DNA from: Oscillospiraceae bacterium | Lineage (GTDB): Bacteria > Bacillota > Clostridia > Oscillospirales > Oscillospiraceae | NCBI GenBank assembly: GCA_017415425.1 | Contig: JAFQGT010000020.1 | Location: forward strand, 18,128 to 82,127 | Length of the DNA: 64,000 nucleotides | Direction: 5' to 3' | In this document: positions 18,112 through 50,068 of the stretch, in pieces | Position numbering within the stretch: position 1 is the stretch's first letter | How the letters are laid out: each line of letters begins with the position of its first letter | Made by a program: the position numbers and the translations under genes | Notes under the pieces: generated by a model | The model's input: the letters and a program-made list of their open reading frames with translations, nothing else | Told to the model about the DNA's origin: nothing | The model's database searches: none

Positions 18112-18151
18112 AAGGTATCATTGTCCCCCATAGGGAGAAAAGAGGAATTTG

Positions 18152-34217: not shown

Positions 34218-35996
34218 ATGAAACGAATTCTCATATGGGTGCTGGTTTTGCTGCTGCTGACAGGCTGTGGCGGGAAGAAACTGCAGACGCCTACCGTGCC
34301 TACGGAGCTGACCGAGCCGCCTGTCACCCTGTATGAACCGGACAGCCTTGCAGAAAGGTCCACCGGCGGTGCGGTGAGAGCCTACCCTCTGGAGGGCACA
34401 TATCTGGGTCTGGAAGTAATGGGCAGCAAGCTGCTACTGTTTTCTCAGGAGGAGCTGACCGTTCTGATGGGGGAGAACTGCCAGATCGCGGCAACGATGC
34501 TCCCGCTATACAATATATATAATGTATTGGCAGATGTGTCTGCCACCGGAATTGCCTACGTTGATTCCGCCGCAAGCCAGCTGGTGGTCCGCAATTCCCA
34601 GCTGCAGGAGACCCAGCGGGTAGACTTACCCCAGGATATGGAAGGCGCTCCTTTGGTCAGTTTGCAAAGGGGAGAGATATTCTATGTATCCGGCGCGGAG
34701 CTCCGGTCTATGGATATGGAAACGGGGATCTCCCGCCTTGTCAAATCCCAAAGCTGCGAAAGCCAGACACTGACCGGCATCTGGTTTAATGGCGGAATGG
34801 TCACCTGCCGTGTCAAAGAGGAATCCGGCAAAGAGCACACCGTCTATATCTGCACCGAGACCGGTCGAACCTTAAGCGAGGACCAGACCGCCTACGGTCT
34901 GCAGACCTTGGGGGATCGGTATCTGGTTCACCGGCAGGACGGGCAGGTGGCCCAGCTGATCGCAGGCATCCGGGAGGGAGATTTGCAAAGCTTCCAACCC
35001 GCCGAGGAAAATGAAATACTGACGCTGAGCCTATCCGGAATTGTGTCCTACGTAGCCCAACCCAATGGCTTGCGCCTATCCTATTATGATCTTGCCACCG
35101 GCAAGCGGGCAGCCCAGGTGCAGATACTCAATGCCAAAGCGCCCATCGCAATGGTTTCAGACAGCCAATATGTGTGGCTTATGGCGGAGAATTTGAATGG
35201 CGCCGGCCAGACCCTGTACCGGTGGGATGTGAAGCGATCTCCCATTGCAGACGACAGGATCTACACAGGCCCGCTCTATACCGCAGAAAATCCCGATACC
35301 GAGGGCCTTGCCCAGTGCCAGACTTTGGCACAGGCACTGCTGGACACCTATGGTGTCCGCGTCCGTCTGTGGCAGGACGCGGTGGAGCAGGCAGGGGAGT
35401 GGTCTGTGACCGGGGAGCACCAAGTCAGTGTGATTTCCGCAATGCTGGAGGAGATGGAAGCCGTTCTGTCTTTGTTCCCAGGGAAGTTCCTGTCTACCAC
35501 TGTCAACGGTGGAAAAATTTGCGTTAACATTATGCGTCAGTTGCCGGAGGGCAGTTGGGCACAGACTTGGCAGGAGGGGGATTGCTGCATATACCTGACA
35601 CCGGAGGCGGATATCCCCGCAGCGCTGCTGCAGGGTATCGGTTACGCAGTGGATGCCTTTGTGCTGGGCAACAGCCGGGACTACGATGACTGGAATGACC
35701 TAAACCCTGTTGACTTCTCCTACACTGGTGCAGCCCAGCCGGAGATCCCTTACCTGGAGGGGGAAGACCGTTACTTTGTGGACGGAGCATCTGCTGCATA
35801 TCCCCATACCGACCGCAGCAGCATCTTCGCGCAAGCATTGCTGCCGGATAACAGTGCGACCTTCCAGTCGGCGGCGATGCAGGCAAAGCTCCTGCGGCTG
35901 TGCCAGGCGATCCGGGAGTCCTATGAACTGGAGAAGAGTCCCGACACCTACCCCTGGGAGCAGTACCTGCAGACCTCCCTGGCATATACGAAATAA
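34218..35996 (+). CDS. Lipoprotein with propeller-like N-terminal part and degenerate metallopeptidase-like C-terminal domain
   Basis: 592 residues. A lipoprotein signal with lipobox LLTGC puts the lipidated Cys at residue 17. Residues 75-360 are repeated beta-rich blades (KLLLFSQEELTVLM, GIAYVDSAASQLVVR, GEIFYVSGAELRSMD, QYVWLMAENLNG). Residues 365-592 resemble a clostridial putative metallopeptidase domain: the WNDLNPVDFSY motif, then EDRYFVDGASAAYPHTDRSSIFAQA and a long C-terminal helix. Where those proteins have HExxH, this one reads LLQGIGYAVDAF, with no His or Glu. I infer a non-catalytic surface protein. ATG at 34218 follows AAGGAG. Confidence 0.75.
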   Translation: MKRILIWVLVLLLLTGCGGKKLQTPTVPTELTEPPVTLYEPDSLAERSTGGAVRAYPLEGTYLGLEVMGSKLLLFSQEELTVLMGENCQIAATMLPLYNIYNVLADVSATGIAYVDSAASQLVVRNSQLQETQRVDLPQDMEGAPLVSLQRGEIFYVSGAELRSMDMETGISRLVKSQSCESQTLTGIWFNGGMVTCRVKEESGKEHTVYICTETGRTLSEDQTAYGLQTLGDRYLVHRQDGQVAQLIAGIREGDLQSFQPAEENEILTLSLSGIVSYVAQPNGLRLSYYDLATGKRAAQVQILNAKAPIAMVSDSQYVWLMAENLNGAGQTLYRWDVKRSPIADDRIYTGPLYTAENPDTEGLAQCQTLAQALLDTYGVRVRLWQDAVEQAGEWSVTGEHQVSVISAMLEEMEAVLSLFPGKFLSTTVNGGKICVNIMRQLPEGSWAQTWQEGDCCIYLTPEADIPAALLQGIGYAVDAFVLGNSRDYDDWNDLNPVDFSYTGAAQPEIPYLEGEDRYFVDGASAAYPHTDRSSIFAQALLPDNSATFQSAAMQAKLLRLCQAIRESYELEKSPDTYPWEQYLQTSLAYTK

Positions 35997-36383
35997 TGGA
36001 CAAGTGGGCGGCCATTGGCTGCCTACTTGTCGTTTCTGTAGGGTTGCCCCAAAAGGAAAGCCGGGATAGGGTGTTCCGGGCCTGTAATTTGGTCAAAGTG
36101 ATAATTTTACCAAAAAACAAAAAATTACTATTGCAAAATTATTGAATTAGAGGTACAATGTGTGTATTCGTAGAATTGCATAGTAATACCCTTGTTCTAC
36201 GTGGGTTATTTGTGTTTTTTACTAAACTGGAATGGCTGATTTTGTACATACTGCTGAAAATTTGAAAATTGGAACTTTCCATCTGACAAATCGTGCATTT
36301 TCCCTTCTTTTTCTGTCAATTCGTATTTTATGAGCACGGATGCTCTAAAAATAATAAATACTATTTAGGAAAGGAACAAAATC
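35997..36383. other. 387-bp intergenic region: weak hairpin, promoter and long leader of the cohesin/dockerin operon
   Basis: The region starts with an imperfect stem (36000-36037) that probably ends the upstream gene run. A clear promoter follows (separate entry), then a roughly 220-nt AT-rich leader. The leader contains a short hairpin at about 36186-36212 (AATACCC with GGGTTATT) followed by a T-rich stretch, which looks like an attenuator. No ORF of substance. Confidence 0.55.
36131..36159 (+). promoter_or_regulatory. Promoter of surface-complex operon 1
   Basis: TTGCAA (36131-36136), 17 bp, TACAAT (36154-36159), about 225 bases before the first start codon. Confidence 0.65.
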
Positions 36384-39300
36384 ATGAAAAACGCAAAAAG
36401 ACTTGCAAGTCTGCTGTTGGCCGTTGCTATGATGTTCACTCTGGTGTTCGCAAATGGCAATATCTTCAGCGTATTTGCGGAAACCACCACCGTTACGAAG
36501 ACCCTGGTCAATATGGACTTCAATAGCGGCGACCTCTCCGGCTGGGTTGACAACACAGAAGTTGTAAAGCCCGTAGTAGAAGGCACCAGATTTGAACCCG
36601 ACGGCGGTATGCTGTGGGTTCGAAACAATTCTAGCCAAACCTGGCTGAAGAAGTATGATTTCGGTGACGGCGTTACCAATGCTGTCCTGGAGTATGAATT
36701 CAGTGTGTCTCAAATGTCCGGCACTCCTAATACAGACACGTCTGTTTTCCTGCCCACTCTGCTGTACGAAGGTGCAGTAGATGAGCAGCAGAACACGAAC
36801 ACCACTCCCTTTGGCCTGTACATCAATGGTATGGAATTGCAGTATAACTATGGCCGCGGTATCGGAAGAGGCAAGGCGACCATTGATGTGAATCCTGCAG
36901 AAGAAGGCGTACAAAAGCTGGAATACAGTACATCTTATACTCTGCGTATTGAGTACGATCTGCCCAACGAATCTGTGAAGGTGTATCTAAACGATACTGA
37001 GCTGACTCTGCCCACGGAAGAGCTGGAAGAAGGGGCTTACAACACTCACATTGATGAGAATGCCAAGCTGGACACAATTTCTGTCGGTGTCAATGCTGCG
37101 CCCAACTCCGATATCAAATTTGATAACCTGAAGGTTACCTCCCAGGTTACCGTGGAGGAAGAGACCCTGGTCAATATGAACTTTGCGGTAGAAGAAGGCG
37201 AAGATCCTGCTACCGTTCTGGCTGGCCTGGGCTGGACAGACAACACCGCAGCTCCGATTCCTGAATCTGAAGATGTCCAGTGGCTCATCGAGAATGACAC
37301 CCTCGGCTTGAAGAGCAATGCTCTGAAGATTACAAATAAGACCAGTAGCTACTGGCACAAAGAACTTACTCTTAGCAAAGCTGTTGACAATGCAGTTCTG
37401 GAGTATAACTTCTCCCTTGCCCAGGTAAGCGGCGATAATCAGAAAGTTTACCTGCCCACTCTGCTGTACCAGGGTGCAACACCTACCGAGAATAACGTTG
37501 ACTCCGCTCCTTTCGGTCTGTATATTCGGGATGGTTATGATGCCGAAGGTAATTATCTCCTAGGCCGCGTCCTGCAATATAACTATGGCCGCGCCATCTC
37601 TGGAAATGGCTTAGGCACAACCGGTAAAGTACTGGAGTTTGACAGATCCTACACCGTACGTATCGAGTACGACCTGCCCGCTAAGTCTGTGAAGGTATAC
37701 CTGCGGGATAATTCCGTTGACAATGCTCAGCTGGAGCTGCTGACTCTGCACGCATTTGCGGCTGATGCAGGCTATAACACCAGCGACAACATTAACGCTG
37801 CAGGCAAGCTGGACAGAATTACTGTCGGTGCTGGCGATGCTACTTCTGCTCTTACCCGTTTCTATGTTGATGACCTGAAGGTCACCACTCTGTCTGTTGT
37901 GGAGCCTGAGACTCCCGATCCCTCCGAAGATCCCTCTGAAGAGCCCGATCCCTCCGAAGAGCCCTCTGAAGAGCCCACCGAGACTCCTGATCCCGAGGCT
38001 GGCTATCAGGCTAACCTGAGTGTCGTCGGCTCTACTACCACCAACGAAGAAAAGAGCATCACCCTTAAGGTGGACGTTACTCACACCTCCGAGTCCGAGT
38101 ACGCTGCCGGCCAGTTCAAGGTCACTTACGATGCAAGCAAGGTTTCCTTCGTTTCTGTCGAAAACACTGCTACCTCCGACGACGAGGCCGGTATCAAGGT
38201 AGACCAAGGCGTCGGCTACATCATCGTCAAGGACTTTGGTGTAAGCAAGACTCTGGGCGGTTCCTACGTTCTGAACTTCACTGCTACCAATGCAGGTTCT
38301 GCAACCTTCACTCTGAGCAACGCTGCATTCTCCGCTCAGGAAGATGCTGCTACTGAGAATCTGGAACCCATCAAGAACACCCCCGCCGCAGTGGTAATGA
38401 CCATCAACCGCGCCCGTCTGAATGTCACCCTGAATGATACAAATAGTTGGTTGACCGGTGATTCTCAGGTTGCTTACGATGGAACCTACACCTTCACCGC
38501 TGCTGATGCTGACAAGTACACCTACACCGTCACCGCTACTATGGGCGGTCAGAATGTTGCTGTCGGTGGCACAAACGGTTCCTACAGCATCGCCAATGTT
38601 ACCGATGATCTGGTGATCAATGTTAGCCGTGTCGCTACTGTGTTTACAGTAACTTACAATGGCGAGGTCGGCGAAAATAGCGGACCGAACGCTACCTGCG
38701 AAAATGACTACACCTTTACTCTGCCTGACGACGTTAACCCGAGCGCTGTGTCTGGTGCCCGTTACACTCTGGGATCTATCACCATCGGTGGTAATAATTA
38801 CACTGATTACGACGTTAATGATAGAACTTACACCATCCACAAAGAAGACATCAGAGGCAACATCGTGATCGTCATTGACAAAGAAACTCTTAACCCCACT
38901 ATGTTTACCGTTGATGTTACCGGTAACGGCGCTGGCATCGCTGCCGGTTTTGCTACTTCTGGCGAGTTGACCCATCAATACACTCTGACTGTCAGTCCCG
39001 TTGCTGGTTATAGCTATACCTACACCGTTACTATGGGCGGCGAAACGCTGGAAATTTCCCCCGTTAATAATGTTTTCACCATCCCCAGTGTTACCGGCAA
39101 TCTGGTATTTAACATTGACCGCGCTGTGATTACTGCCGACGTATCTGTTCAGCATTATGTCACTCTGCAGGGCACCAATATGTGGCTGGTTCTGCAGCCT
39201 CAGACGCTGGACGCAGGCTACCACGCTACCTACAACGGTCAGCCTATGCTCTTCTCCGCCAAGTACAACGCATACGCATACCTGGTAGTTGCTGAAAATC

Positions 39301-39563
39301 AGCCTGATGAGAATGAAGTTAAGGCTGCGATCAATATTGCTACCGGCGATAGAACTGAGATTACTTACGACAACGATATCAATGGCACCGGCGATCAGGA
39401 TACCAACGACGCACAGTTCATCTACAATATGTACAACGCCTACTATGCTGGCATCACGACTGATGTCTCTATGGTCAAGTACCTGAAGGCTGACGTCAAT
39501 GGCACCCGTGAGATCACTGTTGCTGACGCAGTTGCTGTTGTGAAGGCTGTTACTGTTGGCTAA
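36384..39563 (+). CDS. Secreted scaffold-like protein A: two concanavalin-like domains, cohesin-like domain, Ig-like modules, dockerin
   Basis: 1,059 residues. Signal peptide 1-32 (ends SVFA). Concanavalin/LamG-like jelly rolls span about 38-250 and 260-502, each with FLPTLLY/YLPTLLY, QYNYGRG/QYNYGRA and FDNLKVT/VDDLKVT landmarks. A Pro/Ser/Glu linker covers about 507-539. A cohesin-like domain covers 540-675, with GQFKVTYDASKVSFVSV and YVLNFTATNAGSATFTLS. Three Ig-like modules cover 676-917 and a conserved pre-dockerin module (TLQGTNMWLVLQ) about 921-990. The C-terminal dockerin has two Ca-loop segments, DINGTGDQDTND and DVNGTREITVAD. There is no catalytic domain and no membrane anchor. It can both offer and receive cohesin-dockerin contacts. 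ATG follows GGAAAGGA. First gene of the unit. Confidence 0.82.
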   Translation: MKNAKRLASLLLAVAMMFTLVFANGNIFSVFAETTTVTKTLVNMDFNSGDLSGWVDNTEVVKPVVEGTRFEPDGGMLWVRNNSSQTWLKKYDFGDGVTNAVLEYEFSVSQMSGTPNTDTSVFLPTLLYEGAVDEQQNTNTTPFGLYINGMELQYNYGRGIGRGKATIDVNPAEEGVQKLEYSTSYTLRIEYDLPNESVKVYLNDTELTLPTEELEEGAYNTHIDENAKLDTISVGVNAAPNSDIKFDNLKVTSQVTVEEETLVNMNFAVEEGEDPATVLAGLGWTDNTAAPIPESEDVQWLIENDTLGLKSNALKITNKTSSYWHKELTLSKAVDNAVLEYNFSLAQVSGDNQKVYLPTLLYQGATPTENNVDSAPFGLYIRDGYDAEGNYLLGRVLQYNYGRAISGNGLGTTGKVLEFDRSYTVRIEYDLPAKSVKVYLRDNSVDNAQLELLTLHAFAADAGYNTSDNINAAGKLDRITVGAGDATSALTRFYVDDLKVTTLSVVEPETPDPSEDPSEEPDPSEEPSEEPTETPDPEAGYQANLSVVGSTTTNEEKSITLKVDVTHTSESEYAAGQFKVTYDASKVSFVSVENTATSDDEAGIKVDQGVGYIIVKDFGVSKTLGGSYVLNFTATNAGSATFTLSNAAFSAQEDAATENLEPIKNTPAAVVMTINRARLNVTLNDTNSWLTGDSQVAYDGTYTFTAADADKYTYTVTATMGGQNVAVGGTNGSYSIANVTDDLVINVSRVATVFTVTYNGEVGENSGPNATCENDYTFTLPDDVNPSAVSGARYTLGSITIGGNNYTDYDVNDRTYTIHKEDIRGNIVIVIDKETLNPTMFTVDVTGNGAGIAAGFATSGELTHQYTLTVSPVAGYSYTYTVTMGGETLEISPVNNVFTIPSVTGNLVFNIDRAVITADVSVQHYVTLQGTNMWLVLQPQTLDAGYHATYNGQPMLFSAKYNAYAYLVVAENQPDENEVKAAINIATGDRTEITYDNDINGTGDQDTNDAQFIYNMYNAYYAGITTDVSMVKYLKADVNGTREITVADAVAVVKAVTVG

Positions 39564-39586
39564 TTTCCCCGCGATTATCTAAATCT

Positions 39587-39610
39587 CCCACCCCTGTTTT
39601 CAGGGGTGGG
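39587..39610 (+). other. Intercistronic hairpin without T-run
   Basis: Perfect 10-bp stem CCCACCCCTG/CAGGGGTGGG with a TTTT loop between scaffold A and the first anchor gene. It is followed by sequence leading to AAAGGAG and not by T residues, so an RNA stability or processing element is more likely than a terminator. Confidence 0.65.
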
Positions 39611-39635
39611 GATTCCCCTAACTAAAGGAGCATTT

Positions 39636-40580
39636 ATGTTGAAAAGAATTCTCTCCGGCGTGCTGATAGCTGTTCTTTTGCTGTTGAGCCTGCCCTGTGC
39701 GGCATCTGCGGATACGGAGCCACAATTTGAGTTGGAACTGTATATGGACGGCCAGAAGGAATCCCGTGCGGAACCCGGCGATGTGATTACTATTGCTTTG
39801 TATTTACACCGCACCGACAGCCAGGAACGCTACAATATGTATGGTATGCAGGCTGAAATACGGTATAATACAGACTTCTTCCGCTTGGTGGGAGATAGCT
39901 ATATCCATAGCCCGGGTATTGTATGCCAGAACGTCAGCGGTGTCGGCCAGCACGACGAGGTGTATATGAACTTCCTGTCTATAACAGGAGAGGATATGTG
40001 GGAGGCTAAGAAATTTATCGGCAGCTTCCAGCTGGAAGTCATCTCCGATTCAGGTGTTTCAAAAATCACCCTTGAGGACTCTTTAATAGCGCAGCAAGAT
40101 GGCGCTGGTGTCTATGACTGTACAGAAGTGGAACACACTGTGATCGTTTCCACCGATTGTACGATTATCTTTGAATCCAACGGTGGCTCCCCTGTGCAGG
40201 ATATGATCGTGGTTTATGGCGAAAAAATGCCTAAGCCGCAGGATCCCGTGCGGGAAGGCTATATCTTCGCCGGCTGGTACAAGGACATTCATTTACAAGA
40301 CCCCTGGAATTTTGAAACAGATATCGTGGAAGGCAGTGTGGCGCTATATGCCAAGTGGATTGTTGACGAGAATTATCCCGGTGAAACAACCCAACCCACA
40401 GATATCACAGATACCACCGAACCGTCGGTGAACAAACCAATCCTTGAAAATAATACAGTTGTCTTCTGGGGCTTGATGGCTCTGGTCTTACTGGCTGCTG
40501 TATGCATCATACTTATGCTGATCTACCGCAAAAAGAGTGAGGATAAACCCGATCAGCAAGAAGAAAATGAACCCCAATAA
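39636..40580 (+). CDS. Membrane-anchored cohesin-like protein with InlB repeat (anchor 1)
   Basis: 314 residues. Signal peptide 1-25 (ends CAASA). A cohesin-like domain covers about 28-170, with strands DVITIALYLHRTD, GMQAEIRYNTDFFRLVGDSY and FIGSFQLEVISDSGVSKITL. An InlB/Listeria-Bacteroides repeat covers about 175-243, with the hallmark FESNGGSPVQDM, PVREGYIFAGWYKD and ALYAKW. A Thr-rich stalk, one membrane segment (about 267-290) and an acidic cytoplasmic tail complete it. It should display a cohesin at the cell surface, probably to dock the dockerin proteins encoded beside it. ATG at 39636 has AAAGGAG seven bases upstream. An upstream in-frame start would spoil the signal peptide. Confidence 0.78.
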   Translation: MLKRILSGVLIAVLLLLSLPCAASADTEPQFELELYMDGQKESRAEPGDVITIALYLHRTDSQERYNMYGMQAEIRYNTDFFRLVGDSYIHSPGIVCQNVSGVGQHDEVYMNFLSITGEDMWEAKKFIGSFQLEVISDSGVSKITLEDSLIAQQDGAGVYDCTEVEHTVIVSTDCTIIFESNGGSPVQDMIVVYGEKMPKPQDPVREGYIFAGWYKDIHLQDPWNFETDIVEGSVALYAKWIVDENYPGETTQPTDITDTTEPSVNKPILENNTVVFWGLMALVLLAAVCIILMLIYRKKSEDKPDQQEENEPQ

Positions 40581-40676
40581 TGTATCCGTTTTTTCTGGAA
40601 ATACTAAATTTGTAAGTGATCTGACCGTGTAGTATGTGGTCAGAACTGAAATAAATTTTAAGGAAGGAAAAAGATT

Positions 40677-43600
40677 ATGAAAAACGCAAAAAGACTTGCA
40701 AGTCTGCTGTTGGCCGTTGCTATGATGTTCACCCTGGTGTTCGCAAATGGCAATATCTTCAGCGCATTTGCGGAAACCACCACCATTGAGAAGGCTCTGG
40801 TCATGCTGGACTTTGAGTCCGGTGATCTCTCTGGTTGGGAAGCAAACGAAGCAGCCCAGCGGGATACCACCGCAAATCAACGCTGGCAAACTGCTAACAG
40901 CTCTGTCTTGGGCGGAAACGCTCTGGAAGTCAGAAGAGGCGATGGCCCCAACTGGCTGTATGAGTATCCTATTGGCACAGCTGTTAACAAGGCATCTCTG
41001 GAGTATAAGTTCTCTATTACTCAGATGTCCAACCCTGCCTATTCTGATCAGGATATCTATCTGCCCACTCTGCTGTACGCAGGCGCTCCCGATGAAGCGC
41101 TGAATGAGAATTCCGCTCCTCTCGGCCTGTATATTGAGAGTATGGATCTGTACTATAACTATGGCCGCGGCATTGGTAAAGGCAAGCAGGTAATTGTTGA
41201 CCAACTGGAATACGAAACAGCCTACACCCTGCGTGTTGAGTATGATCTGCCCAACGACTCTGTGAAGGTATACCTGAACGGCTCTGAGCTGGCTCTGCCC
41301 ACCACTGATCTGGAAGTAGGCTTTGACAACACCTATATTGACCATGAAGCCAAGCTGGACAGAATTTCTGTCGGTGTTTATAATGCTTTGAATTCCCATG
41401 CCTTTATCGATGACCTGAAGGTCACCACCGAGGTTCCCGTAGAGGAAGAGACCCTGGTCAATATGAACTTTACGGTAGAAGAAGGCGAAGATCCTGCTAC
41501 CGTTCTGGCTGGCCTGGGCTGGACTGACAACACCGCAGCCCCCAAGCCTGACAGTGAAGAAACCCAGTGGATCATTGAAAATAGCGTAGAAAGCGGCTTA
41601 AGCAGCAATGCGCTGAAGGTTACCAATAAGCTCAACCAGCACTGGTATAAGGAACTTAACATCGGCAAGGCTGTTGACAATGCAGTTCTGGAGTATAATT
41701 TCTCCTTTGTCCAGATAAGCCCGTCCCTCACAGATCAGCGCGTATATCTGCCCACTCTGATGTACGAGGGTGCAACACCTAACGCTGAGAACCTTGACGC
41801 CGCTCCTCTCGGCCTGTATGTTCGTGACGGCGGTATCCTGTACTACAACTATGGTCGCGCCATCGCCGGATATGGCGTATCATCTACCGGCAAAACATTG
41901 GAGTTCGGCAAATCCTACACCGTACGTATTGAGTACAATCTGCCCACTAAGTCTGTGAAGGTATTCCTGCGGGATAATACCGTTGCGAATGCTCAGCTGG
42001 AGCAGCTGGATCTGTCCGCAACTCCGGAAGCTGGCTACGGCAGCGGCAGCATTGATGCTGCTGGCAAGCTGGACAGAATTACTGTCGGTGCTGGCTTAAG
42101 CGGTGGTGCTATGCCCACCCGTTTCTATGTTGATGACATAAAGGTCACCACTCTGTCTGTTGTGGAGCCTGAGACTCCCACTCCCTCCGAAGATCCCTCC
42201 GAAGATCCCTCCGAAGAGCCCTCCGAAGAGCCCTCCGAAGAGCCCACTGAAGCTCCCGAGCCCTCTGAGCCTCAGCCCTCTGAGCCTCAGCCCTCTGAGC
42301 CTCAGCCCTCTGAGCCTGCAACCAATGGCTACCAGGCTAACCTGAATGTCGCCAACACTGCTACCGTTGGTGAAGATATCGCCGTTAACGTAGTTGTGAA
42401 CCACAGCTCTGAGACTGTGTTCGCTGCCGGCGAATTCAAGGTCACTTACGATGCAAGCAAGGTTTCCTTCGTTTCTGTGAACAATGCCACCACCGGCAGC
42501 ACTGCTGGTATCAAGGTTAAGGCACAGAATGGTGTCATTACCGTGGAAGACTTCGGTAACGACAAGAACCTGCCCGCTACTTACACCCTGAACTTCACCG
42601 CTTCCGCTGAGGGCGATGCAACATTCACTCTGAGTGGTGCTGCATTCTCCGCTAAGGAAGATGCTATCGACGAAGATCTGGAAGCAATCGTCAACACCCC
42701 CGCAGCAGCAACCGTTACTGTTGAGCCTGCTACCTTCTCCGTCACCCTGCCTGAGAACGTAACCGGTAATTCCGATGTTGTTCCCGGCGGCACCTACACC
42801 TTCACCGTTGCTGACTACGACAAGTACGACTACACCATCACCGCTACTATGGGCGGCGTAGCTGCTACTGTTGTTCCCGGCGAAAACGGTTCTTACAGCA
42901 TTGCCGATGTTACCGGTGATCTGGTGATTACCGCTACCCGTACTCCGAAGGTGTTCAACGTGACCATCGACGGCGAGACCGCTGATAACGACGGCACTAC
43001 CGCTACCTACGGTGTTGATTACTCCTTCACTCTGCCCGAGAACATTGCTGCAGGTTCCGAGGCTGGCACCAACTACGCTGTTGAGTCTATCACCATCGGC
43101 GGCGTTGCTTACACCGGCTTCTCCAGTGCTGACAGAGTTTACACCATCCCCGGCACTGACATCCTCGGTGATATCGAGATCACAATTTCTGCAACAACCG
43201 TTGCTCCCAATGAGTTTGCGGTTAGTGTTGTAGGCAACGGCGCTGGTATCGCTACCGGCTATGCTACTAAGGGCACCATCGGCCAGAACTACGTTCTGAC
43301 TGTGTCTCCTCTTGCTGGCTACAACTACACCGTCTCCGTTACTATGGGCGGCGTGGCTGCTCAGTATTCTCAGGTTGGCAACACCTACACCGTAGCAGCT
43401 GTTTCCGGCCATCTGGTATTTACCATTACCGCTACCGCTAAGACTGACAATGTGTCTGTTCACGAGTATGTCACTCTGCAGGGCACCAATATGTGGCTGG
43501 TTCTGCAGGCTGAGGATCTGGGTGCGAACAGCTATGCTACCTACAACGGTCAGGCTATGTTCTACTCCGATAAGTACGAGGCATACGCTTACTTGGTAAC

Positions 43601-43862
43601 TGCTGAAACTCTGACTGAAGACGATGCCAAGGCTTTGATCGGCGTTGCTTCCGGTTCTGCTACCGAGATCGCATACAGCTATAACGTGAACGGTTCTGCA
43701 AAGATCGACGCTAACGATGCACAGCTGGTTCACAACATCTACAATACCATTGGTATTGATGAAGTTTCTACTAACCAGTTCTTCCTGGCTGACGTCAATG
43801 GCGACAAGCAGGTCAACATTGCTGACGCAGTTGCAGTCGTTACCTACGTTCTGGAACAGTAA
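40677..43862 (+). CDS. Secreted scaffold-like protein B (paralogue of A)
   Basis: 1,061 residues with the same order of modules as protein A. Signal peptide 1-32 is almost identical to that of A. Concanavalin-like domains cover about 37-250 and 256-497. The linker at 497-548 is built of SEDP, SEEP and SEPQP repeats. The cohesin-like domain covers 549-681 (GEFKVTYDASKVSFVSV). Ig-like modules cover 682-921 and the pre-dockerin module 924-995 (TLQGTNMWLVLQAEDL). The dockerin at 1000-1061 has loops NVNGSAKIDAND and DVNGDKQVNIAD, closer to the canonical dockerin than that of A. Stretches of DNA are nearly identical to gene A, so the duplication is recent or maintained by gene conversion. ATG follows AAGGAAGG. 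Confidence 0.82.
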   Translation: MKNAKRLASLLLAVAMMFTLVFANGNIFSAFAETTTIEKALVMLDFESGDLSGWEANEAAQRDTTANQRWQTANSSVLGGNALEVRRGDGPNWLYEYPIGTAVNKASLEYKFSITQMSNPAYSDQDIYLPTLLYAGAPDEALNENSAPLGLYIESMDLYYNYGRGIGKGKQVIVDQLEYETAYTLRVEYDLPNDSVKVYLNGSELALPTTDLEVGFDNTYIDHEAKLDRISVGVYNALNSHAFIDDLKVTTEVPVEEETLVNMNFTVEEGEDPATVLAGLGWTDNTAAPKPDSEETQWIIENSVESGLSSNALKVTNKLNQHWYKELNIGKAVDNAVLEYNFSFVQISPSLTDQRVYLPTLMYEGATPNAENLDAAPLGLYVRDGGILYYNYGRAIAGYGVSSTGKTLEFGKSYTVRIEYNLPTKSVKVFLRDNTVANAQLEQLDLSATPEAGYGSGSIDAAGKLDRITVGAGLSGGAMPTRFYVDDIKVTTLSVVEPETPTPSEDPSEDPSEEPSEEPSEEPTEAPEPSEPQPSEPQPSEPQPSEPATNGYQANLNVANTATVGEDIAVNVVVNHSSETVFAAGEFKVTYDASKVSFVSVNNATTGSTAGIKVKAQNGVITVEDFGNDKNLPATYTLNFTASAEGDATFTLSGAAFSAKEDAIDEDLEAIVNTPAAATVTVEPATFSVTLPENVTGNSDVVPGGTYTFTVADYDKYDYTITATMGGVAATVVPGENGSYSIADVTGDLVITATRTPKVFNVTIDGETADNDGTTATYGVDYSFTLPENIAAGSEAGTNYAVESITIGGVAYTGFSSADRVYTIPGTDILGDIEITISATTVAPNEFAVSVVGNGAGIATGYATKGTIGQNYVLTVSPLAGYNYTVSVTMGGVAAQYSQVGNTYTVAAVSGHLVFTITATAKTDNVSVHEYVTLQGTNMWLVLQAEDLGANSYATYNGQAMFYSDKYEAYAYLVTAETLTEDDAKALIGVASGSATEIAYSYNVNGSAKIDANDAQLVHNIYNTIGIDEVSTNQFFLADVNGDKQVNIADAVAVVTYVLEQ

Positions 43863-43882
43863 TATCTAAGCAATAAATAAAT

Positions 43883-43911
43883 CTCCCATCCCTGCCAAGC
43901 AGGGATGGGAG
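43883..43911 (+). other. Intercistronic hairpin without T-run
   Basis: Perfect 13-bp stem (43883-43895 / 43899-43911) with a CAA loop between scaffold B and the short dockerin gene. It closely resembles the hairpin at 39587-39610 in position and sequence and again leads into AAAGGAGCA-ATG. Confidence 0.65.
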
Positions 43912-43935
43912 ACCCCCAGAGTCAAAGGAGCAAGT

Positions 43936-44940
43936 ATGTGCAAAAGATTTTTTTCCGCAGTGCTAATAGTTGTTTTTATATTGTCAACAGTGCCCTGTGT
44001 GGCTTTTGCAGTTGAGGGTGATGCCTTTCAGGTGACTGTCACAGGCAGTGGCGCCGCTCAGGTGCTGGACGCTGCCGGTACAGCTATTCAAGGAACGGAT
44101 TATACCTTCACAAAGCCGTATGTGCCCGGTTATAGCTATAGTGTTTCTATTTTCATAGACGGCGTTGCATATACGGATTATGCAGTAACTGCATTGGGTG
44201 TTTATACAATTTTCGGCGCTGACATCACCGGAGATATTGAGATCTTTGTTGCTCGGGAGCAGGTGGATTGCGCTGTTTCTGTAACAGGTTTCGCAGCTGG
44301 TGTTGCCGACGGTTATGCGTCCGGTGTTGCATATGGTAATGACTATACACTGACAATTGCTCCGAAGCCTGAGAATAACTACCTGATCTCAGCCACCATC
44401 GATACACCGGAAGGAAAGATCGATGCTGTTATAAACAACAATGGCAACAATACCTATACGGTTACGAACGTTACCGGTTACTTAACTTTTACCATTGAAA
44501 TAGGAGAAGATATCTCGGCTGATGATATTGAAATCAGTGAATATCTGCAAATGAATAACAGCAAGGTGTGGCTTGTAAAAGCCTCTCTTGAAACCCCGGA
44601 AGGTTGGGTTCTTACCTATGATGATAACCCGATGTACTGGGCAGAAGAACATAATGCTTATTGCTATCTTGTGATGGCGAATGAGCAGCCCAAGAATGTA
44701 AAGGACTTGATCGGCATTGCTGCCGGCGATGCTGTTACCATTACTTATGATGGTGATGTCAACTCTACCAGCATCACAGATATGAATGACGCACAGATGG
44801 TATATAATATCTACAATATCTTATATACGGATGATTTTCTGGAAATTGATATGAATAAAATGCTTTCTGTAGATATGAACAAGGATGGTTGTGTGGATAT
44901 TCGGGATGCCGTCGCAATTGTAAGTGTCATTCTGCAATGA
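43936..44940 (+). CDS. Short secreted dockerin protein with Ig-like modules
   Basis: 334 residues. Signal peptide 1-25 (ends VAFA). Two Ig-like modules (about 27-105 and 110-190) are related to the modules near the C-terminus of scaffolds A and B. The pre-dockerin module covers about 195-265 (YLQMNNSKVWLVKASL, NPMYWAEEHNAYCYLVMA). The dockerin at 268-334 has loops DVNSTSITDMND and DMNKDGCVDIRD. It equals the C-terminal third of the scaffolds without concanavalin or cohesin domains. It could cap or compete for cohesins. ATG at 43936 follows AAAGGAG. Confidence 0.8.
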   Translation: MCKRFFSAVLIVVFILSTVPCVAFAVEGDAFQVTVTGSGAAQVLDAAGTAIQGTDYTFTKPYVPGYSYSVSIFIDGVAYTDYAVTALGVYTIFGADITGDIEIFVAREQVDCAVSVTGFAAGVADGYASGVAYGNDYTLTIAPKPENNYLISATIDTPEGKIDAVINNNGNNTYTVTNVTGYLTFTIEIGEDISADDIEISEYLQMNNSKVWLVKASLETPEGWVLTYDDNPMYWAEEHNAYCYLVMANEQPKNVKDLIGIAAGDAVTITYDGDVNSTSITDMNDAQMVYNIYNILYTDDFLEIDMNKMLSVDMNKDGCVDIRDAVAIVSVILQ

Positions 44941-45005
44941 TTCAAACAAGGGACTTTTCCTCCGGCAATAGCAGGTGAGGAAGACCCGAAGCTAAAGGAG
45001 CAAAT

Positions 45006-45950
45006 ATGCATAGAAGAATTCTCTCTGTTGTGCTGATTGCTATCTTCTTGTTGTTGGCTTTGCCATGTAAGGCTTCTGCTACAAGTCAAGAACCCCAATA
45101 TATATACGAACTGCATGTGGACGGAAATGCGGAGTCCCGTCAGGAAAAAGGTAACATTGTTACATTTTCCGTGTACCTGCACCGTACTGACAACCAGGAA
45201 ACCTTCAATATGCGCGGTATGCAGACCGAGGTCCGTTATGATACGTCTTTCTTTCGTTTGATTGAAGACAGTTATGTGACTGCACCCGGAATTGTTGCCA
45301 AGCACGTGAATGGTGTTGGCCAGTTCGATGAAATGTACTTTAACTTCCTGTCCTATACGGGTTCTGATATTTGGGAAGCAGAGAAGTTTATCGGTAGTTT
45401 CCGACTGGAAGTTCTTTCTGGATCCGGTGTTTCCAAGGTCACATTGGAGGACTCTATGGTGGCTCATCCGGACGGATTGGGCGATAGCTTTGAATATGAA
45501 GAGGTAGAACATACCGTCATTGTCACCACCGAGTGTACAGTAAAATTTGTAACCAACGGCGGTTCCGTTGTGCAGGATATGATTGTGATCTATGGCGAGA
45601 AGATCCCAAAGCCGCAAAATCCTGTGCGCGAAGGCTACACCTTTGCCGGATGGTATAAGGATATCCACCTGCAGGAGCAGTGGGATTTCGATAAGGATGT
45701 TGTTGAAAGCAGTATGTATCTGTATGCCAAGTGGACACCTGATCCCACCCAGCCTACAGAAACAACGGAGCCTACAGATCCTACTCAAGATCCGGGTAAT
45801 AATCAGACCTGTGACGGAAATAGACTAATTCTGATCATCCTGCTGATCGTGGTTATTTTGGCCTCGGCCTTTATCATCTTCCTGTTGTTGTTCCGTAGGA
45901 AGAAAAATGATGAAGAAGATTGTACGCAAGAAGATAATACGCAAATTTAA
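45006..45950 (+). CDS. Membrane-anchored cohesin-like protein with InlB repeat (anchor 2)
   Basis: 314 residues, the same length and design as anchor 1. Signal peptide 1-25 (ends CKASA). The cohesin-like domain covers about 28-170 (NIVTFSVYLHRTDN, MQTEVRYDTSFFRLIEDSY, FIGSFRLEVLSGSGVSKVTL). The InlB repeat covers about 175-240 (FVTNGGSVVQDM, PVREGYTFAGWYKD, YLYAKW). A Thr/Pro stalk, one membrane segment (about 273-298) and an acidic tail follow. ATG follows AAAGGAG. It is the last gene of operon 1, right before a strong terminator. A weak stem (44957-44962 / 44977-44982) lies in the gap in front. Confidence 0.78.
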   Translation: MHRRILSVVLIAIFLLLALPCKASATSQEPQYIYELHVDGNAESRQEKGNIVTFSVYLHRTDNQETFNMRGMQTEVRYDTSFFRLIEDSYVTAPGIVAKHVNGVGQFDEMYFNFLSYTGSDIWEAEKFIGSFRLEVLSGSGVSKVTLEDSMVAHPDGLGDSFEYEEVEHTVIVTTECTVKFVTNGGSVVQDMIVIYGEKIPKPQNPVREGYTFAGWYKDIHLQEQWDFDKDVVESSMYLYAKWTPDPTQPTETTEPTDPTQDPGNNQTCDGNRLILIILLIVVILASAFIIFLLLFRRKKNDEEDCTQEDNTQI

Positions 45951-45955
45951 TATCT

Positions 45956-45987
45956 AAAGCTGCTCAGTTAACTGAGCAGCTTTTTTA
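45956..45987 (+). terminator. Terminator of surface-complex operon 1
   Basis: Perfect 14-bp inverted repeat (45956-45969 / 45970-45983; the central TTAA must form the loop) followed by a T-run. Confidence 0.9.
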
Positions 45988-46145
45988 TGTATGTATCCTG
46001 CGTTTTTCACCAGTAGCAAATAGGCTTGCTTTGGCAATGTGCATAAATACAAGACTATACTGCAGGTAATTTCCCACGAATTTCAAATAGTGGTTGTTAA
46101 ATCTGCACAAAAAAAGAAACACGACAACGAAAGTGGGTTTATGAC

Positions 46146-46174
46146 TTGAAATTTTGGAAGATTTGAGTTAAAAT
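46146..46174 (+). promoter_or_regulatory. Promoter of surface-complex operon 2
   Basis: TTGAAA (46146-46151), 17 bp, TAAAAT (46169-46174), followed by a roughly 120-nt leader. The rest of the 348-bp gap 45951-46298 holds the upstream terminator and no gene. Confidence 0.7.
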
Positions 46175-46298
46175 GTTTTTAGTTACCATAGCGCGAGTGT
46201 GCTTTCTACTCACCTCTTTATTGAGTCTTTCAAAACACAACCAGTATTTTGTCGTGAGCATAAGCGCGTAAGAATCTATTGCGAAGGGAAAGAATTGT

Positions 46299-48953
46299 AT
46301 GAAAGATGCAAAGAAACTTGCTTGTATGTTGCTGGCTATTTGTATGATGTTTACGCTGTTGTTTGCAAACGCTAACATCTTCAATGTACAAGCAAACCCC
46401 ACTATTCGAACTCTTATCAATCTGGACTTTGAGTCCGGCGATCTGTCTGCCTGGGAAGCAAACGAAGAAGCCCAGCGAGATACCACCGCAAATCAACGCT
46501 GGCAAATTGCTGACAGCGCTGTTTTGGGCAGCAAGGCGCTGGAGGTCAGAAGAGGCGATGGCCCCAACTGGCATCAAGAGTTTCCTCTTGGTGAAGCTGT
46601 TAACAATGCAGTTCTTGAGTATCGTTTCTCTATAACACAGATGTCCAACCCCCCTTACTCAGATCAGGATATCTACCTGCCCACTCTGCTGTACAGGGGT
46701 GCTGCAGATGAAGCACTGAACGTCAATTCCGCTCCTTTTGGCCTGTATATTGAGAGTATGGATCTGTACTATAACTATGGCCGCGGCATCGGAAATGGCA
46801 AGCAGGTTATTGTTGAGCAACTGGAATATGAAACAGCCTACACTCTGCGTATAGAGTACATGCTGCCCACCGAGTCTGTGAAGGTATTCCTGAACGGAAA
46901 TGAACTGGAACTTCCCACTACAGAATTGGAAGCAGCCGGCGATAGCTCCCTCATTAATGAGACAGGCAAGCTGGATAGAATTTCTGTCGGTGTTCATAAC
47001 CTTTTGAATTCCCATGCTTTTATTGACGATCTGAAGGTTACCACGGATGACTCCGTACCTGAGGCTACCGAGGCTACCGAAGCCACCGAGGCTACCGAAG
47101 CCACCGAGGCTACTGAAGCTACTGAAGCTACCGAAGCCACCGAGTCTACTGAGGCCACCGAGTCTACCGAAGCCACCGAGGCTACTGAAGCTACTGAAGC
47201 TACTGAAGCTACCGAAGCTACCGAAGCTACCGAAGCTACCGAAGCCACCGAGTCTACTGAGGCCACCGAGTCTACCGAAGCCACCGAGTCTACCGAAGCT
47301 ACCGAAGGTGACGACGGTGTAGAGACCCTTGTCAATATGAACTTTGAGTCCGGCGATCTCACTGGCTGGGAAGCTAACACTGCAGCTCAGCAACAAGATG
47401 GCGCAAATTTCCGTTGGCAAATTGCTAACAGCACCGCTTTGGGCAGCAAGGCGCTGGAGGTCAGAAGAGGCGATGGCCCCAACTGGCATCAAGAGTTTCC
47501 TCTTGGTGAAGCTGTTAACAATGCAGTTCTGGAGTATCGGTTCTCTATAACGCAGATGTCCAACCCCCCTTACTCGGATCAGGATATCTATCTGCCCACT
47601 CTGCTGTACAGGGGTGCTGCAGATGAAGCACTGAACGTGAATTCCGCTCCTCTCGGTCTGTATGTGGAGGCTATGCAGTTGTACTATAACTATGGCCGCG
47701 GCATCGGAAATGGCAAGCAGGTTATTGTTGAGCAACTGGAATATGAAACAGCCTACACTCTGCGTATTGAGTACGACCTGCCCACCGAGTCTGTGAAGGT
47801 ATTCCTGAACGGAAACGAACTGGAACTGCCCACTACAGATCTTGAAGAAGATGGTGACAGCTCCCTCATTAATGAGACAGGTAAGCTGGACAGAATTTCT
47901 GTCGGTGTTCATAACCTTTTAAATTCCCATACCTTTATTGATGACCTGAAGGTTACCACCTTGGTATCTACCGAACCCGAGACCACCGAGCCTTCCACCG
48001 AGTCCACCGAGGCTACTGAAGGCACCGATGCTACCGAGGGCACCGATGCTACCGAGGGCACTGAGGGCACCGATGCTACCGAGGGCACTGAGGGCACCAA
48101 TGCTACCGAGGGCACTGAGGGCACCGATGCTACCGAGGGCACTGAGGCTACCGATCCTTCTGTCATTTTGAAGCTGGACTTCGAGAATGGTACGCTGGGT
48201 CAGCTGCCTGCAGGTTGGACTCAGAGTGTAGCAACGCCTCTGAACACCTCTGCTGACAGCACTTCGTATTTTACCAAGCTGGTTGAAAATCCTGAATCTG
48301 AAGTGGGCAAGAACACCTCCGCAAAGGTATTCCAGTTCTCCAACTACAAAAATGGCGACTATCTGCTGAACTACAAGTTGAAGGATTCTATGACAACTGC
48401 CGTCCTGGAATACAAGATCTATATGAAGCGGACCTCTACGATTTACAATGCAGTTTTGCCTACACTGTTTTATGAGGGCAAGAATGACAGCAATTCCGCT
48501 GGCAATCAGCCCACACCGTTGCTGCTTCTGGTTCAGCAGGTCGGCAATGATCCTGTTCTGACTTTCTCCTATGGCGCAGCCGCTTACGATACAGCTACAA
48601 TTTTGAAATGGGATACCTGGTATACCATTCGTATTGAGTACGATGCCAAGACCCATAAAGCAAATCTGTATGTAGACAATCAGAAGATTGCCTTGAAGGC
48701 CGACAACCCCTACAACAAGGATCCCTTTGCCGGTTCGCCTATGAAGTTGGACCGCATTGTGGCTGGTACTTATGACGCTGGCATTACACAAGTGTTTATT
48801 GATGATCTGACCATCACGAAACTCACCGGTTTGACTCCCAGCAATCCATCCACTGCTGATGAGTTCAATCCGATGGTTGCTGTTGTGACGTTGCTTACTG
48901 CTGTTGCAGCCGGTTTCGTTCTGATCAAGTCCCGCAGGAATTATCGCGCATAA
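46299..48953 (+). CDS. Surface protein with three concanavalin-like domains and long Thr-Glu-Ala linkers
   Basis: 884 residues. Signal peptide 1-32 (ends NVQA). Concanavalin-like domain 1 covers about 37-246, a low-complexity TEA linker 248-337, domain 2 covers 341-552 (nearly a copy of domain 1), and a second linker of TEGTDA/TEGTEG units covers 556-620. A more diverged domain 3 covers 621-845, followed by PSNPSTADEFNP, a hydrophobic segment (about 860-877) and the basic tail KSRRNYRA. The C-terminus has the layout of a sortase signal, but NPSTAD is not LPXTG. The Thr-rich linkers are likely O-glycosylated stalks. There is no catalytic, cohesin or dockerin domain. ATG follows GAAGGGAAAG. Confidence 0.8.
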   Translation: MKDAKKLACMLLAICMMFTLLFANANIFNVQANPTIRTLINLDFESGDLSAWEANEEAQRDTTANQRWQIADSAVLGSKALEVRRGDGPNWHQEFPLGEAVNNAVLEYRFSITQMSNPPYSDQDIYLPTLLYRGAADEALNVNSAPFGLYIESMDLYYNYGRGIGNGKQVIVEQLEYETAYTLRIEYMLPTESVKVFLNGNELELPTTELEAAGDSSLINETGKLDRISVGVHNLLNSHAFIDDLKVTTDDSVPEATEATEATEATEATEATEATEATEATESTEATESTEATEATEATEATEATEATEATEATEATESTEATESTEATESTEATEGDDGVETLVNMNFESGDLTGWEANTAAQQQDGANFRWQIANSTALGSKALEVRRGDGPNWHQEFPLGEAVNNAVLEYRFSITQMSNPPYSDQDIYLPTLLYRGAADEALNVNSAPLGLYVEAMQLYYNYGRGIGNGKQVIVEQLEYETAYTLRIEYDLPTESVKVFLNGNELELPTTDLEEDGDSSLINETGKLDRISVGVHNLLNSHTFIDDLKVTTLVSTEPETTEPSTESTEATEGTDATEGTDATEGTEGTDATEGTEGTNATEGTEGTDATEGTEATDPSVILKLDFENGTLGQLPAGWTQSVATPLNTSADSTSYFTKLVENPESEVGKNTSAKVFQFSNYKNGDYLLNYKLKDSMTTAVLEYKIYMKRTSTIYNAVLPTLFYEGKNDSNSAGNQPTPLLLLVQQVGNDPVLTFSYGAAAYDTATILKWDTWYTIRIEYDAKTHKANLYVDNQKIALKADNPYNKDPFAGSPMKLDRIVAGTYDAGITQVFIDDLTITKLTGLTPSNPSTADEFNPMVAVVTLLTAVAAGFVLIKSRRNYRA
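47062..47307 (+). repeat. Coding minisatellite: Thr-Glu-Ala (9-bp) tandem repeats
   Basis: About 25 in-frame 9-bp units of the ACCGAGGCT/ACTGAAGCT/ACCGAGTCT type, encoding T-E-A or T-E-S, inside the first linker of the three-domain surface protein. Blocks such as the TES-TEA order are themselves repeated. Length is expected to vary between strains by slippage. Confidence 0.9.
48000..48150 (+). repeat. Coding repeats: Thr-Glu-Gly-Thr-Asp-Ala units
   Basis: In-frame units of GAGGGCACTGAGGGCACC and GATGCTACC type, repeated about six times in the second linker of the same gene. Confidence 0.85.
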
Positions 48954-49026
48954 TTCCATTATCCTCTGTATTTTAGCGCACTGTGAGCGCCTAAAATTAA
49001 AATTTGTTTTGAAAGGAAAGAAAATT

Positions 49027-50022
49027 ATGAAAAACGCAATGAAATTGATCTGCGTGTTGCTGACTGTCTGTATGGTCTTTGGCCTTATGTTGGCAAACGG
49101 CGGTATCTTCACCGTAAAAGCAGCTACTGCAGAGACTCTCGTAAATCTGGACTTTGAGTCCGGTGATCTTGCTGGCTGGAAAGCTAACTCCGCAGCACAG
49201 CAACAGCAGGGCGCAAATTTCCGGTGGCAAATTGCTGACAGTGCCGTTTTGGGCAGCAAGGCGCTGGAAGTCAGAAGAGGCGATGGCCCCAACTGGCATC
49301 AGGAGTACCCTCTTGGCAAGACTGTTAACAATGCCGTTCTGGAGTATAAGTTCTCCATCACACAGATGTCCAATCCCGCCTATAGTGATGAGGATATTTA
49401 CCTGCCCACTCTGCTGTATGCTGGTGCTGCAGATGAAGCGCTGAACGTGAATTCCGCTCCTCTCGGTCTGTATGTTGAGGCTATGCAGCTGTACTATAAC
49501 TATGGTCGCGGCATCGGTAACGGCAAGCAGGTTATTGTTGAGCAGCTGGAGTACGAAACAGCCTACACACTGCGTATTGAGTACGATCTGCCTAGCCAGT
49601 CTGTGAAGGTGTTCCTGAACGGAAATCAGCTGATCCTGGACACCAGAGAGCTGGACTCCGGTGCTGACCATACCATCATTAATAAGGAAGGCAAGCTGGA
49701 CAGAATTTCTGTCGGTGTTCATAACCTTTTGAATACCCATGTCTTCTTTGATGACCTGAAGGTTACCGGTGTTCCCACCGGCGATACTCCGGCCACCCAG
49801 CCCACTCAGGCTACCCAGCCCACTCAGGCTACCCAGGCCACTCAGGCAACTCAGGCTACTCAGGCTACCCAGGGCGGCAGCGCCACCCAGGCTACTCAGG
49901 CTCCCGCTCCGAGCAACCCCAGCACAGCTGACGAGTTCAATCCTGTGACTGCTGCGGTGATTATGCTGGTTGCCGTTGCTGCTGCAGTGGTTCTTCTGAA
50001 GACTAAGAGCTCCCGCGCATAA
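49027..50022 (+). CDS. Surface protein with one concanavalin-like domain, Thr-Gln linker and C-terminal anchor
   Basis: 331 residues. Signal peptide 1-32 (ends TVKA). One concanavalin-like domain (about 36-250) is closely related to the domains of the neighbouring proteins (LDFESGDLAGW, YLPTLLYAGAADEAL, LYYNYGRGIGNGKQ, FFDDLKVTG). A linker of about 12 TQA/TQP units precedes SNPSTADEFNP, a hydrophobic segment (about 308-325) and the tail KTKSSRA. The anchor motif is shared with the preceding gene. I use the ATG at 49027 after GAAAGGAAAG. It is likely co-transcribed with the 884-aa gene. The 73-bp gap has a stem (TTTTAGCGC with GCGCCTAAAA) and no T-run. Confidence 0.82.
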   Translation: MKNAMKLICVLLTVCMVFGLMLANGGIFTVKAATAETLVNLDFESGDLAGWKANSAAQQQQGANFRWQIADSAVLGSKALEVRRGDGPNWHQEYPLGKTVNNAVLEYKFSITQMSNPAYSDEDIYLPTLLYAGAADEALNVNSAPLGLYVEAMQLYYNYGRGIGNGKQVIVEQLEYETAYTLRIEYDLPSQSVKVFLNGNQLILDTRELDSGADHTIINKEGKLDRISVGVHNLLNTHVFFDDLKVTGVPTGDTPATQPTQATQPTQATQATQATQATQATQGGSATQATQAPAPSNPSTADEFNPVTAAVIMLVAVAAAVVLLKTKSSRA

Positions 50023-50036
50023 TTTTCTGTAACTAT

Positions 50037-50068
50037 AAAGCCACCTGATTTTATCAGGTGGCTTTTTT
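50037..50068 (+). terminator. Terminator of surface-complex operon 2
   Basis: 13-bp stem (50037-50049 / 50053-50065) with T6 overlapping its end. Confidence 0.9.

Follow-up and report, generated by a model that had tools for sequence, protein, structure and literature searches.

What would cohesins and dockerins be for where none of the proteins concerned carries a recognised catalytic domain? The question is raised by seven genes, here called P1 to P7, in a stretch of 64,000 nucleotides (the window) from the Oscillospiraceae bacterium assembly GCA_017415425.1 (contig JAFQGT010000020.1, forward-strand positions 18,128 to 82,127). The seven intact open reading frames (ORFs), all on the + strand, span positions 36384-50022 of the window, and five of them, P1, P3, P4, P2 and P5 (36384-45950), are cohesin/dockerin genes. 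We consider it fairly probable that P1-P5 form a miniature non-enzymatic surface-display system, in which secreted proteins ending in a dyad of X-module and dockerin (XDoc) would plug into the cohesins of the membrane anchors P2 and P5 and probably build a glycan-binding layer.

A hydropathy scan found an N-terminal signal-type segment in all seven proteins and a C-terminal membrane segment in P2, P5, P6 and P7, with none in P1, P3 and P4. The first five genes are composed as follows (ConA-like, concanavalin-like; aa, amino acids).

36384..39563, + strand: P1, 1059 aa, secreted; intact ORF
36495-37154 and 37158-37901, + strand: two ConA-like modules of P1; profile search
37995-38417, + strand: internal cohesin of P1, after a PSEEP-type linker; profile search
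39129-39560, + strand: XDoc of P1, preceded by beta modules; profile search
39636..40580, + strand: P2, anchor; intact ORF
39714-40151, + strand: cohesin of P2; profile search
about 40161-40355, + strand: Flg_new/InlB B-repeat of P2; PF09479, 67.4 bits
about 40458-40514, + strand: C-terminal membrane segment of P2; hydropathy scan
40677..43862, + strand: P3, 1061 aa, secreted; intact ORF
40788-41441 and 41445-42164, + strand: two ConA-like modules of P3; profile search
42321-42734, + strand: internal cohesin of P3, after a P/S/E-rich linker; profile search
43440-43859, + strand: XDoc of P3, preceded by beta modules; PF00404, 28.0 bits, over the cut-off
43936..44940, + strand: P4, 334 aa, secreted, with beta modules followed by XDoc (44515-44937); profile search
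45006..45950, + strand: P5, anchor; intact ORF
45087-45527, + strand: cohesin of P5; profile search
about 45537-45731, + strand: Flg_new/InlB B-repeat of P5; PF09479, 73.4 bits
about 45825-45881, + strand: C-terminal membrane segment of P5; hydropathy scan

P2 and P5, which are 59% identical, share the order signal peptide, cohesin, Flg_new/InlB B-repeat, membrane segment and charged tail, and no LPXTG/sortase-type motif was seen by eye in their C-termini. P1 and P3 are 61% identical. Profile searches detected neither a cohesin nor a ConA-like module in P4, and no scaffoldin with several cohesins was found, P1, P2, P3 and P5 having one cohesin each. The composition proposed in an earlier note on this DNA, namely two proteins with both cohesin and dockerin (P1, P3), one short dockerin protein (P4) and two anchored cohesin proteins (P2, P5), was recovered. 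A third anchor-type cohesin gene of the same genome (C19:113357, equal to L176 8848-9885) is solitary and has no XDoc neighbour.

Pfam models for dockerin (PF00404, cut-off 22.9) and cohesin (PF00963, cut-off 24.1) gave an uneven picture. With PF00404, the whole-protein scan yielded 28.0 for P3 and 10.7 for P4, P1 being unlisted at E<=1, and the whole-genome scan yielded 32.7 for P3, 17.5 for P4 and 13.9 for P1. Since 9 of the 14 control genomes also matched at E<=1 (two over the cut-off), weak PF00404 matches count for little alone. With PF00963, P3, P1 and P2 reached 22.9, 16.8 and 15.1 in the whole-protein scan, none over the cut-off, and 27.8 (over 24.1), 21.3 and 16.9 in the genome scan; P5 was listed in neither, and 2/14 control genomes matched, one over the cut-off. 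Of the two scaffold proteins, P3 thus exceeded both Pfam cut-offs (for the cohesin in the genome scan only), while P1 stayed below them. Profiles built from relatives made a good case. That of the anchor cohesins (A6) matched the ScaB cohesin of PDB 3l8q at 3.1e-6 and NagJ cohesins at 4e-5 to 7e-5, that of the internal cohesins (A7) matched 3l8q at 5.4e-12 and NagJ at 5e-8, and the XDoc profile (A9, 25 rows) matched the dockerin 4uyq at 5.1e-8, plus other solved dockerins, over its dockerin half. These matches argue that the domains are cohesins and dockerins, as the earlier note had named them.

Such domains could persist after their binding was lost, the locus being a decaying acquisition. 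In an alignment read by eye, the P1 dockerin has a partly degenerate second loop, and the spread is patchy, reaching one of six sampled congeners with the genome itself included. This explanation is nonetheless highly improbable: all seven reading frames are intact, the paralogues at 59-61% identity stay full length, and the positions expected to be calcium ligands are mostly kept in the P3 and P4 dockerins (also by eye). The dockerins of P1 and P4 align with that of P3 at 37-52% identity.

That XDoc and anchor are partners is suggested by their co-occurrence and adjacency in relatives. Among 300 genomes of the family, the window-only XDoc profile (A1) matched 18, from 14 of 106 genera, and the window-only anchor profile (A10) matched 14, all among these 18, and 0/282 of the others. 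The Fisher P of 7.6e-21 counts the own genome and treats the genomes as independent, though they are related; with the own genome excluded, the anchor (A10) occurs in 13/17 XDoc genomes versus 0/282. A6, a wider anchor profile partly seeded from XDoc neighbours, matched exactly the 18 genomes of A1. None of the five other congeners was matched by A1, A6 or A10; one of the congeners, G195, gave a weak A9 match (7e-6).

In 20 XDoc regions, counted by stop-to-stop frames and including several from the same or near-identical genomes, a same-strand anchor ORF lay at <=350 bp in 11, at 690 bp in two and at ~5 kb in two. In regions fetched later it adjoins in L178 and L179 and not in L180 and L182. 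Three loci from named genomes show the arrangement. In an Oscillospiraceae genome (RGIG7427, water buffalo colon; locus L051, whose contig is that of G149 in the family sample, which puts RGIG7427 and the window in one family), a dockerin protein, an XDoc scaffold, a transmembrane (TM) anchor and an SLH anchor stand in a row. In Lachnospiraceae SIG295 (L052), a protein of the order GH10-Coh-beta-XDoc is followed by a TM anchor, and in UBA1728 (L053), a dockerin protein (profile 1.8e-8) and an XDoc scaffold are accompanied by two anchors. These were the only ones of 79 loci with XDoc/anchor-cohesin matches, the underlying whole-anchor-protein scan of named genomes having been swamped by Flg_new. 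Two other regions (L158, L166) repeat L051 and L053, and L156/L159 and L170/L171 are near-identical pairs. A 2994-aa ORF that looks like a nonribosomal peptide synthetase by eye (L053 11542-20526) adjoins an anchor-cohesin gene in UBA1728.

The anchors of relatives take two forms. Three SLH stretches each were found in 11 of the 12 scanned (10/10 in one scan, 1/2 in the other), out of 21 distinct anchors; the ten were not a random sample, seven of them being anchors with no clear membrane segment. Of the nine outside the SLH scan, eight have a hydrophobic C-terminal segment (borderline in L174) and one (L173) reaches the contig end. The earlier note had proposed a display or adhesion layer, and SLH on the relatives' anchor cohesins supports its surface-display part, while glycan binding keeps the rank of a suggestion.

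Pfam and NCBIfam gave P1-P7 no recognised catalytic domain, in agreement with the earlier note, which had added that the locus might be waiting for enzymes with dockerins from other loci. Across the whole own genome, an assembly of 1.73 Mb with 97.4% completeness and 4.5% contamination, PF00404 at E<=1 matched three window genes, one place on contig C3 and two genes on C25, the allelic contig, and the XDoc profile at E<=10 matched the same six places. The C3 match (C3:77952, 13.6 bits, below the cut-off) belongs to a protein of 1715 aa. The whole-protein scan (E<=0.1) lists Flg_new and LRR_5 for it and no enzyme domain; the genome scan puts a cohesin match of 29.1 bits at its N-terminus, and a double repeat resembling a dockerin can be read by eye. 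Neither search, then, found a dockerin-bearing enzyme in this genome, and the idea of enzymes waiting elsewhere in it is not supported. The 1715-aa protein adjoins a collagen-repeat protein of 1128 aa (the pair spans L044 7462-16015) whose C-terminus looks cohesin-like by eye and by its place in a cohesin tree.

Partners could also come from outside. If the locus were a cellulosome of an incomplete or opportunistic kind, its internal cohesins would capture dockerin enzymes from unbinned genome parts or neighbouring species, and enzymes from other cells might serve as partners. The GH10 of L052 sits on the same kind of chain, and Paenibacillus guangzhouensis has been suggested to scavenge foreign dockerin proteins (PMC11557425, in excerpt). 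We nevertheless hold this explanation to be unlikely, given that the 97.4% complete genome showed no dockerin enzyme and that 23 of the 24 relatives' XDoc proteins scanned had no recognised catalytic domain, the GH10 being the only one (E<=0.01). The other XDoc proteins carry LRR_5, Big_2, FIVAR, PKD, fn3 or Flg_new, or no named head, and the one in L172 hits the model for the N-terminal region of M26 peptidases. The 24 proteins do not include those of L157 and L178-L182, and the independent cases are fewer than 24 because near-identical pairs are among them.

The two kinds of cohesin fall into two clades. In a tree of all 47 cohesin rows, labelled by XDoc presence in the ORF and flagged with a long-branch warning, a branch supported at 100/99 separates two sets. 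The 20 rows of the first set all come from ORFs without XDoc; of the 27 in the second, 23 are in XDoc ORFs, and the remaining four on this internal-cohesin side come from other ORFs. The cohesins of P2 and P5 lie on the anchor side and those of P1 and P3 on the other. A first tree, labelled by finding profile, held 19/22 anchor rows, 19/24 internal rows and three others and left out the rows of L161, L168 and L175, among them ambiguous ones; the split held with all rows. Two clades suggest different partners, and on the simplest reading the anchors would take XDoc and the internal cohesins a plain dockerin, a two-level code like that of known cellulosomes.

The same proteins might instead assemble with one another, the XDoc of P1 or P3 entering the next internal cohesin, with P2/P5 as the base and P4 as the terminator of a ConA-like fibre. 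A cohesin lies on the same chain in 21 of 30 relatives' XDoc/dockerin ORFs (19 by profiles; L164 and L169 by Pfam; L158 and L166 excluded), the own genome has hardly any other dockerin for the internal cohesin, and the make-up of P4 suits a cap. The separation of internal and anchor cohesins into different clades argues against such a chain. So does a second observation: in eight of the remaining 17 XDoc genomes, A9 also gave matches confined to the dockerin half (start >= position 49), which are further candidate partners for the internal cohesins there. We regard a self-assembling chain as improbable.

The ConA-like modules that head P1 and P3 are also found in the two remaining proteins.

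46299..48953, + strand: P6, 884 aa; intact ORF
46404-47057, 47319-47972 and 48156-48833, + strand: three ConA-like modules of P6, between TEA/TEG-rich linkers; profile search
49027..50022, + strand: P7, 331 aa; intact ORF
49129-49782, + strand: one ConA-like module of P7, then a TQA-rich linker; profile search

P6 and P7, whose linkers are Thr-rich, end in an NPSTAD-type motif (sorting-type, by eye), a membrane segment and a basic tail, and the own genome gave five sortase matches, four over the cut-off. The earlier note was right that the anchored P6 and P7 share a module; the evidence for its label, concanavalin-like, is indirect. The best PDB match of the module profile (A8) was only 0.22, and Pfam matches were weak, with CBM_4_9 in 2/14 members and CBM_56, Laminin_G_3 and others in one. 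A8 also finds a distantly related domain in L216 (residues 1435-1605, 5.8e-11), which overlaps a Laminin_G_3 match there (residues 1525-1626, 41.0 against a cut-off of 27.6). The module occurs in 6/391 genomes of the class, the own one included and the other five at 6e-9 to 2e-6, and was not found in viral contigs. It also heads two surface-type proteins on contig C19 of the own genome, which have a GH141 insertion domain (55.2 and 48.2 bits, cut-off 27) and in which no dockerin was found.

L042 4427-10582 and 10876-14502, minus strand: two surface-type GH141-related proteins with ConA-like modules; own genome, C19

These two proteins could be dockerin-less enzyme partners, bound to the cell, for the display layer. 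The ConA-like modules may bind glycans, of host or diet; the presence of the module on the two GH141-related proteins fits this.

In the mechanism that we favour, P2 and P5 sit in the membrane and each present one cohesin on an InlB-B-repeat stalk, as their sequences show. The XDoc of the secreted P1, P3 and P4 would dock into these cohesins, which gene adjacency and co-occurrence suggest, presumably in a calcium-dependent manner. On long linkers, the ConA-like modules of P1 and P3 would be displayed as glycan-binding adhesins, adhesion being the likely purpose. Their internal cohesin, of the second clade, may recruit a different, plain dockerin, for which the 1715-aa C3 protein is the only candidate cargo seen in the own genome. 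P6 and P7 would offer the same binding module tethered directly, probably by sortase. We more tentatively extend this to the family, which may hold, beside cellulosomes, a dedicated non-enzymatic display system made of a conserved but patchy pair of XDoc and TM or SLH cohesin, varied adhesive heads (ConA-like, LRR, Big_2, FIVAR) and, for additional cargo, an orthogonal second class of cohesin.

Several observations weigh against this picture. The X part of XDoc matched no solved X-module at E<=10 among the best 60 of 61 matches of a sequence comparison. The wider profile A9 matched 46/300 genomes, most extra matches covering the dockerin half; since it spans most of the X part in seven genomes without any anchor match (G001, G042, G102, G107, G153, G208 and G238; 2e-9 to 6e-6), distant XDoc-like proteins occur without an anchor, and the tight pairing appears to hold for close XDoc relatives and not for all distant ones. 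No anchor ORF was seen in 5 of the 20 XDoc regions, in one of which (L177) an anchor lies ~2 kb beyond the fetched region. No match to the ConA-like module turned up in the other 299 family genomes searched, which puts the module outside the conserved cassette, and its presumed glycan role leans on weak or indirect matches. Finally, catalytic domains new to Pfam could escape the scans, and a 97% complete genome could be missing a dockerin enzyme.

The seven genes appear to be transcribed as two units, P1-P5 followed by P6-P7. Successive genes of the first unit lie 65-96 bases apart, P5 and P6 are separated by 348 bases and P6 and P7 by 73, and the hairpin after P5, the promoter-like site ahead of P6 and the hairpin after P7 fit this division.

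36131..36159, + strand: promoter-like site ahead of the five-gene unit, TTGCAA-17-TACAAT; consensus match, 9/12
43879..43915, no strand assigned: hairpin of 17 pairs between P3 and P4; terminator-like call, minus strand
45956..45983, + strand: terminator-like hairpin (12 pairs, 6 GC) and T run after P5, closing the five-gene unit
46146..46174, + strand: promoter-like site ahead of P6, TTGAAA-17-TAAAAT; consensus match, 10/12
50037..50065, + strand: terminator-like hairpin 3' of P7; 13 pairs, 6 GC

The calls are consensus matches only, from a set of 32 promoter-like (17.2 expected) and 15 terminator-like ones (10.8 expected). The 17-pair hairpin at 43879-43915 is strong and sits within the presumed five-gene unit. 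All seven genes of the locus described in the earlier note are there, in two apparent units. A single complex of all seven proteins is at most a possibility: P6 and P7 carry neither cohesin nor dockerin and resemble a separate unit.

Contig C25 was considered as a second copy of the locus and rejected. Its 8674 bases aligned with window 35336-43967 show 0 substitutions and 42 gap bases, and its translations are 10 and 4 residues longer, within PSEEP-type linkers; because the differences are gaps in linkers, C25 is an allele or assembly variant of the locus. Contig C34 likewise duplicates C19 (3108 bases, 0 substitutions, 18 gap bases). The linker-length differences are either real population variation or assembly error at repeats. 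The LytR gene adjoining the locus was found in 5/5 congeners, around which P1, P2, P4 and P7 were unmatched by tblastn; G049 keeps the order HtrA-LytR-BlaI, and the other flank of the locus was not found there. Elsewhere in the window, a T-box leader (7583-7797, minus strand; 93.3 against a gathering score of 93) lies upstream of a gene (4738-7530) that is isoleucyl-tRNA synthetase-like by eye.

The closest known arrangement is in Ruminococcus flavefaciens, where the group 4 dockerin of CttA docks on the wall-anchored single cohesin ScaE (PMC2930009, in excerpt) and a substrate-anchoring complex of the species withstands 600-750 pN (PMC4266597, in excerpt). The architecture is shared: a non-catalytic protein ends in a dockerin, and a single cohesin is anchored at the surface. 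The R. flavefaciens version, however, belongs to a large many-enzyme cellulosome, whereas no dockerin enzyme was found here; ScaE is anchored by LPXTG, whereas P2 and P5 are predicted to be transmembrane and many relatives have SLH; the X-module here has no sequence match to solved ones; and P1 and P3 bear a cohesin of their own. Where CttA-ScaE has polysaccharide-binding heads, they have ConA-like modules, which may serve as such and show weak Pfam matches and one indirect Laminin_G_3 chain. P. guangzhouensis, as far as excerpts of its description go (PMC11557425), likewise has one-cohesin-one-dockerin proteins, SLH-anchored cohesins and one dockerin outside scaffoldins, but many of its adaptors carry glycoside hydrolases, unlike the not recognisably catalytic heads of P1 and P3; TM single cohesins are reported in the same source for Lachnoclostridium MSJ-17. 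The mucinolysome of the gut Firmicute Limousia has an anchored single cohesin, cSca5, predicted to receive dockerins, together with 12 to 21 dockerin-bearing carbohydrate-active enzymes and multi-cohesin scaffoldins that set it apart (PMC12997984, in excerpt). Non-cellulosomal cohesins are also known from the NagJ type (X82) of Clostridium perfringens, and NagJ is among the best solved matches to both cohesin classes, but those cohesins are attached to glycoside hydrolases (same excerpt). Unlike a cellulosome, amylosome or mucinolysome, the present system showed neither dockerin enzymes in the genome nor a multi-cohesin scaffoldin. Searches of openly licensed papers, with subscription papers mostly outside their scope, yielded no description of a cassette of XDoc and TM/SLH anchor. 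The principle is already known; the apparent novelty is a plug-and-socket cassette that is autonomous and mostly enzyme-free, patchy in the family and with TM and SLH anchor forms.

The cassette also supplies a pair of anchoring parts for surface display, namely XDoc and a cohesin held by TM or triple SLH. The locus is a test case for the suggestion, made in 2010 for the group 4 dockerins of R. flavefaciens, that some dockerins structure the cell surface and not the cellulosome (PMC2930009, in excerpt). Cohesin and dockerin in one genome are taken as the sign of a cellulosome-like complex, and 4333 of 289,232 UHGG genomes (1.5%) hold both (PMC12997984, in excerpt). If many such genomes are enzyme-free display systems, these counts would exaggerate the capacity for degradation and conceal a class of surface adhesins.

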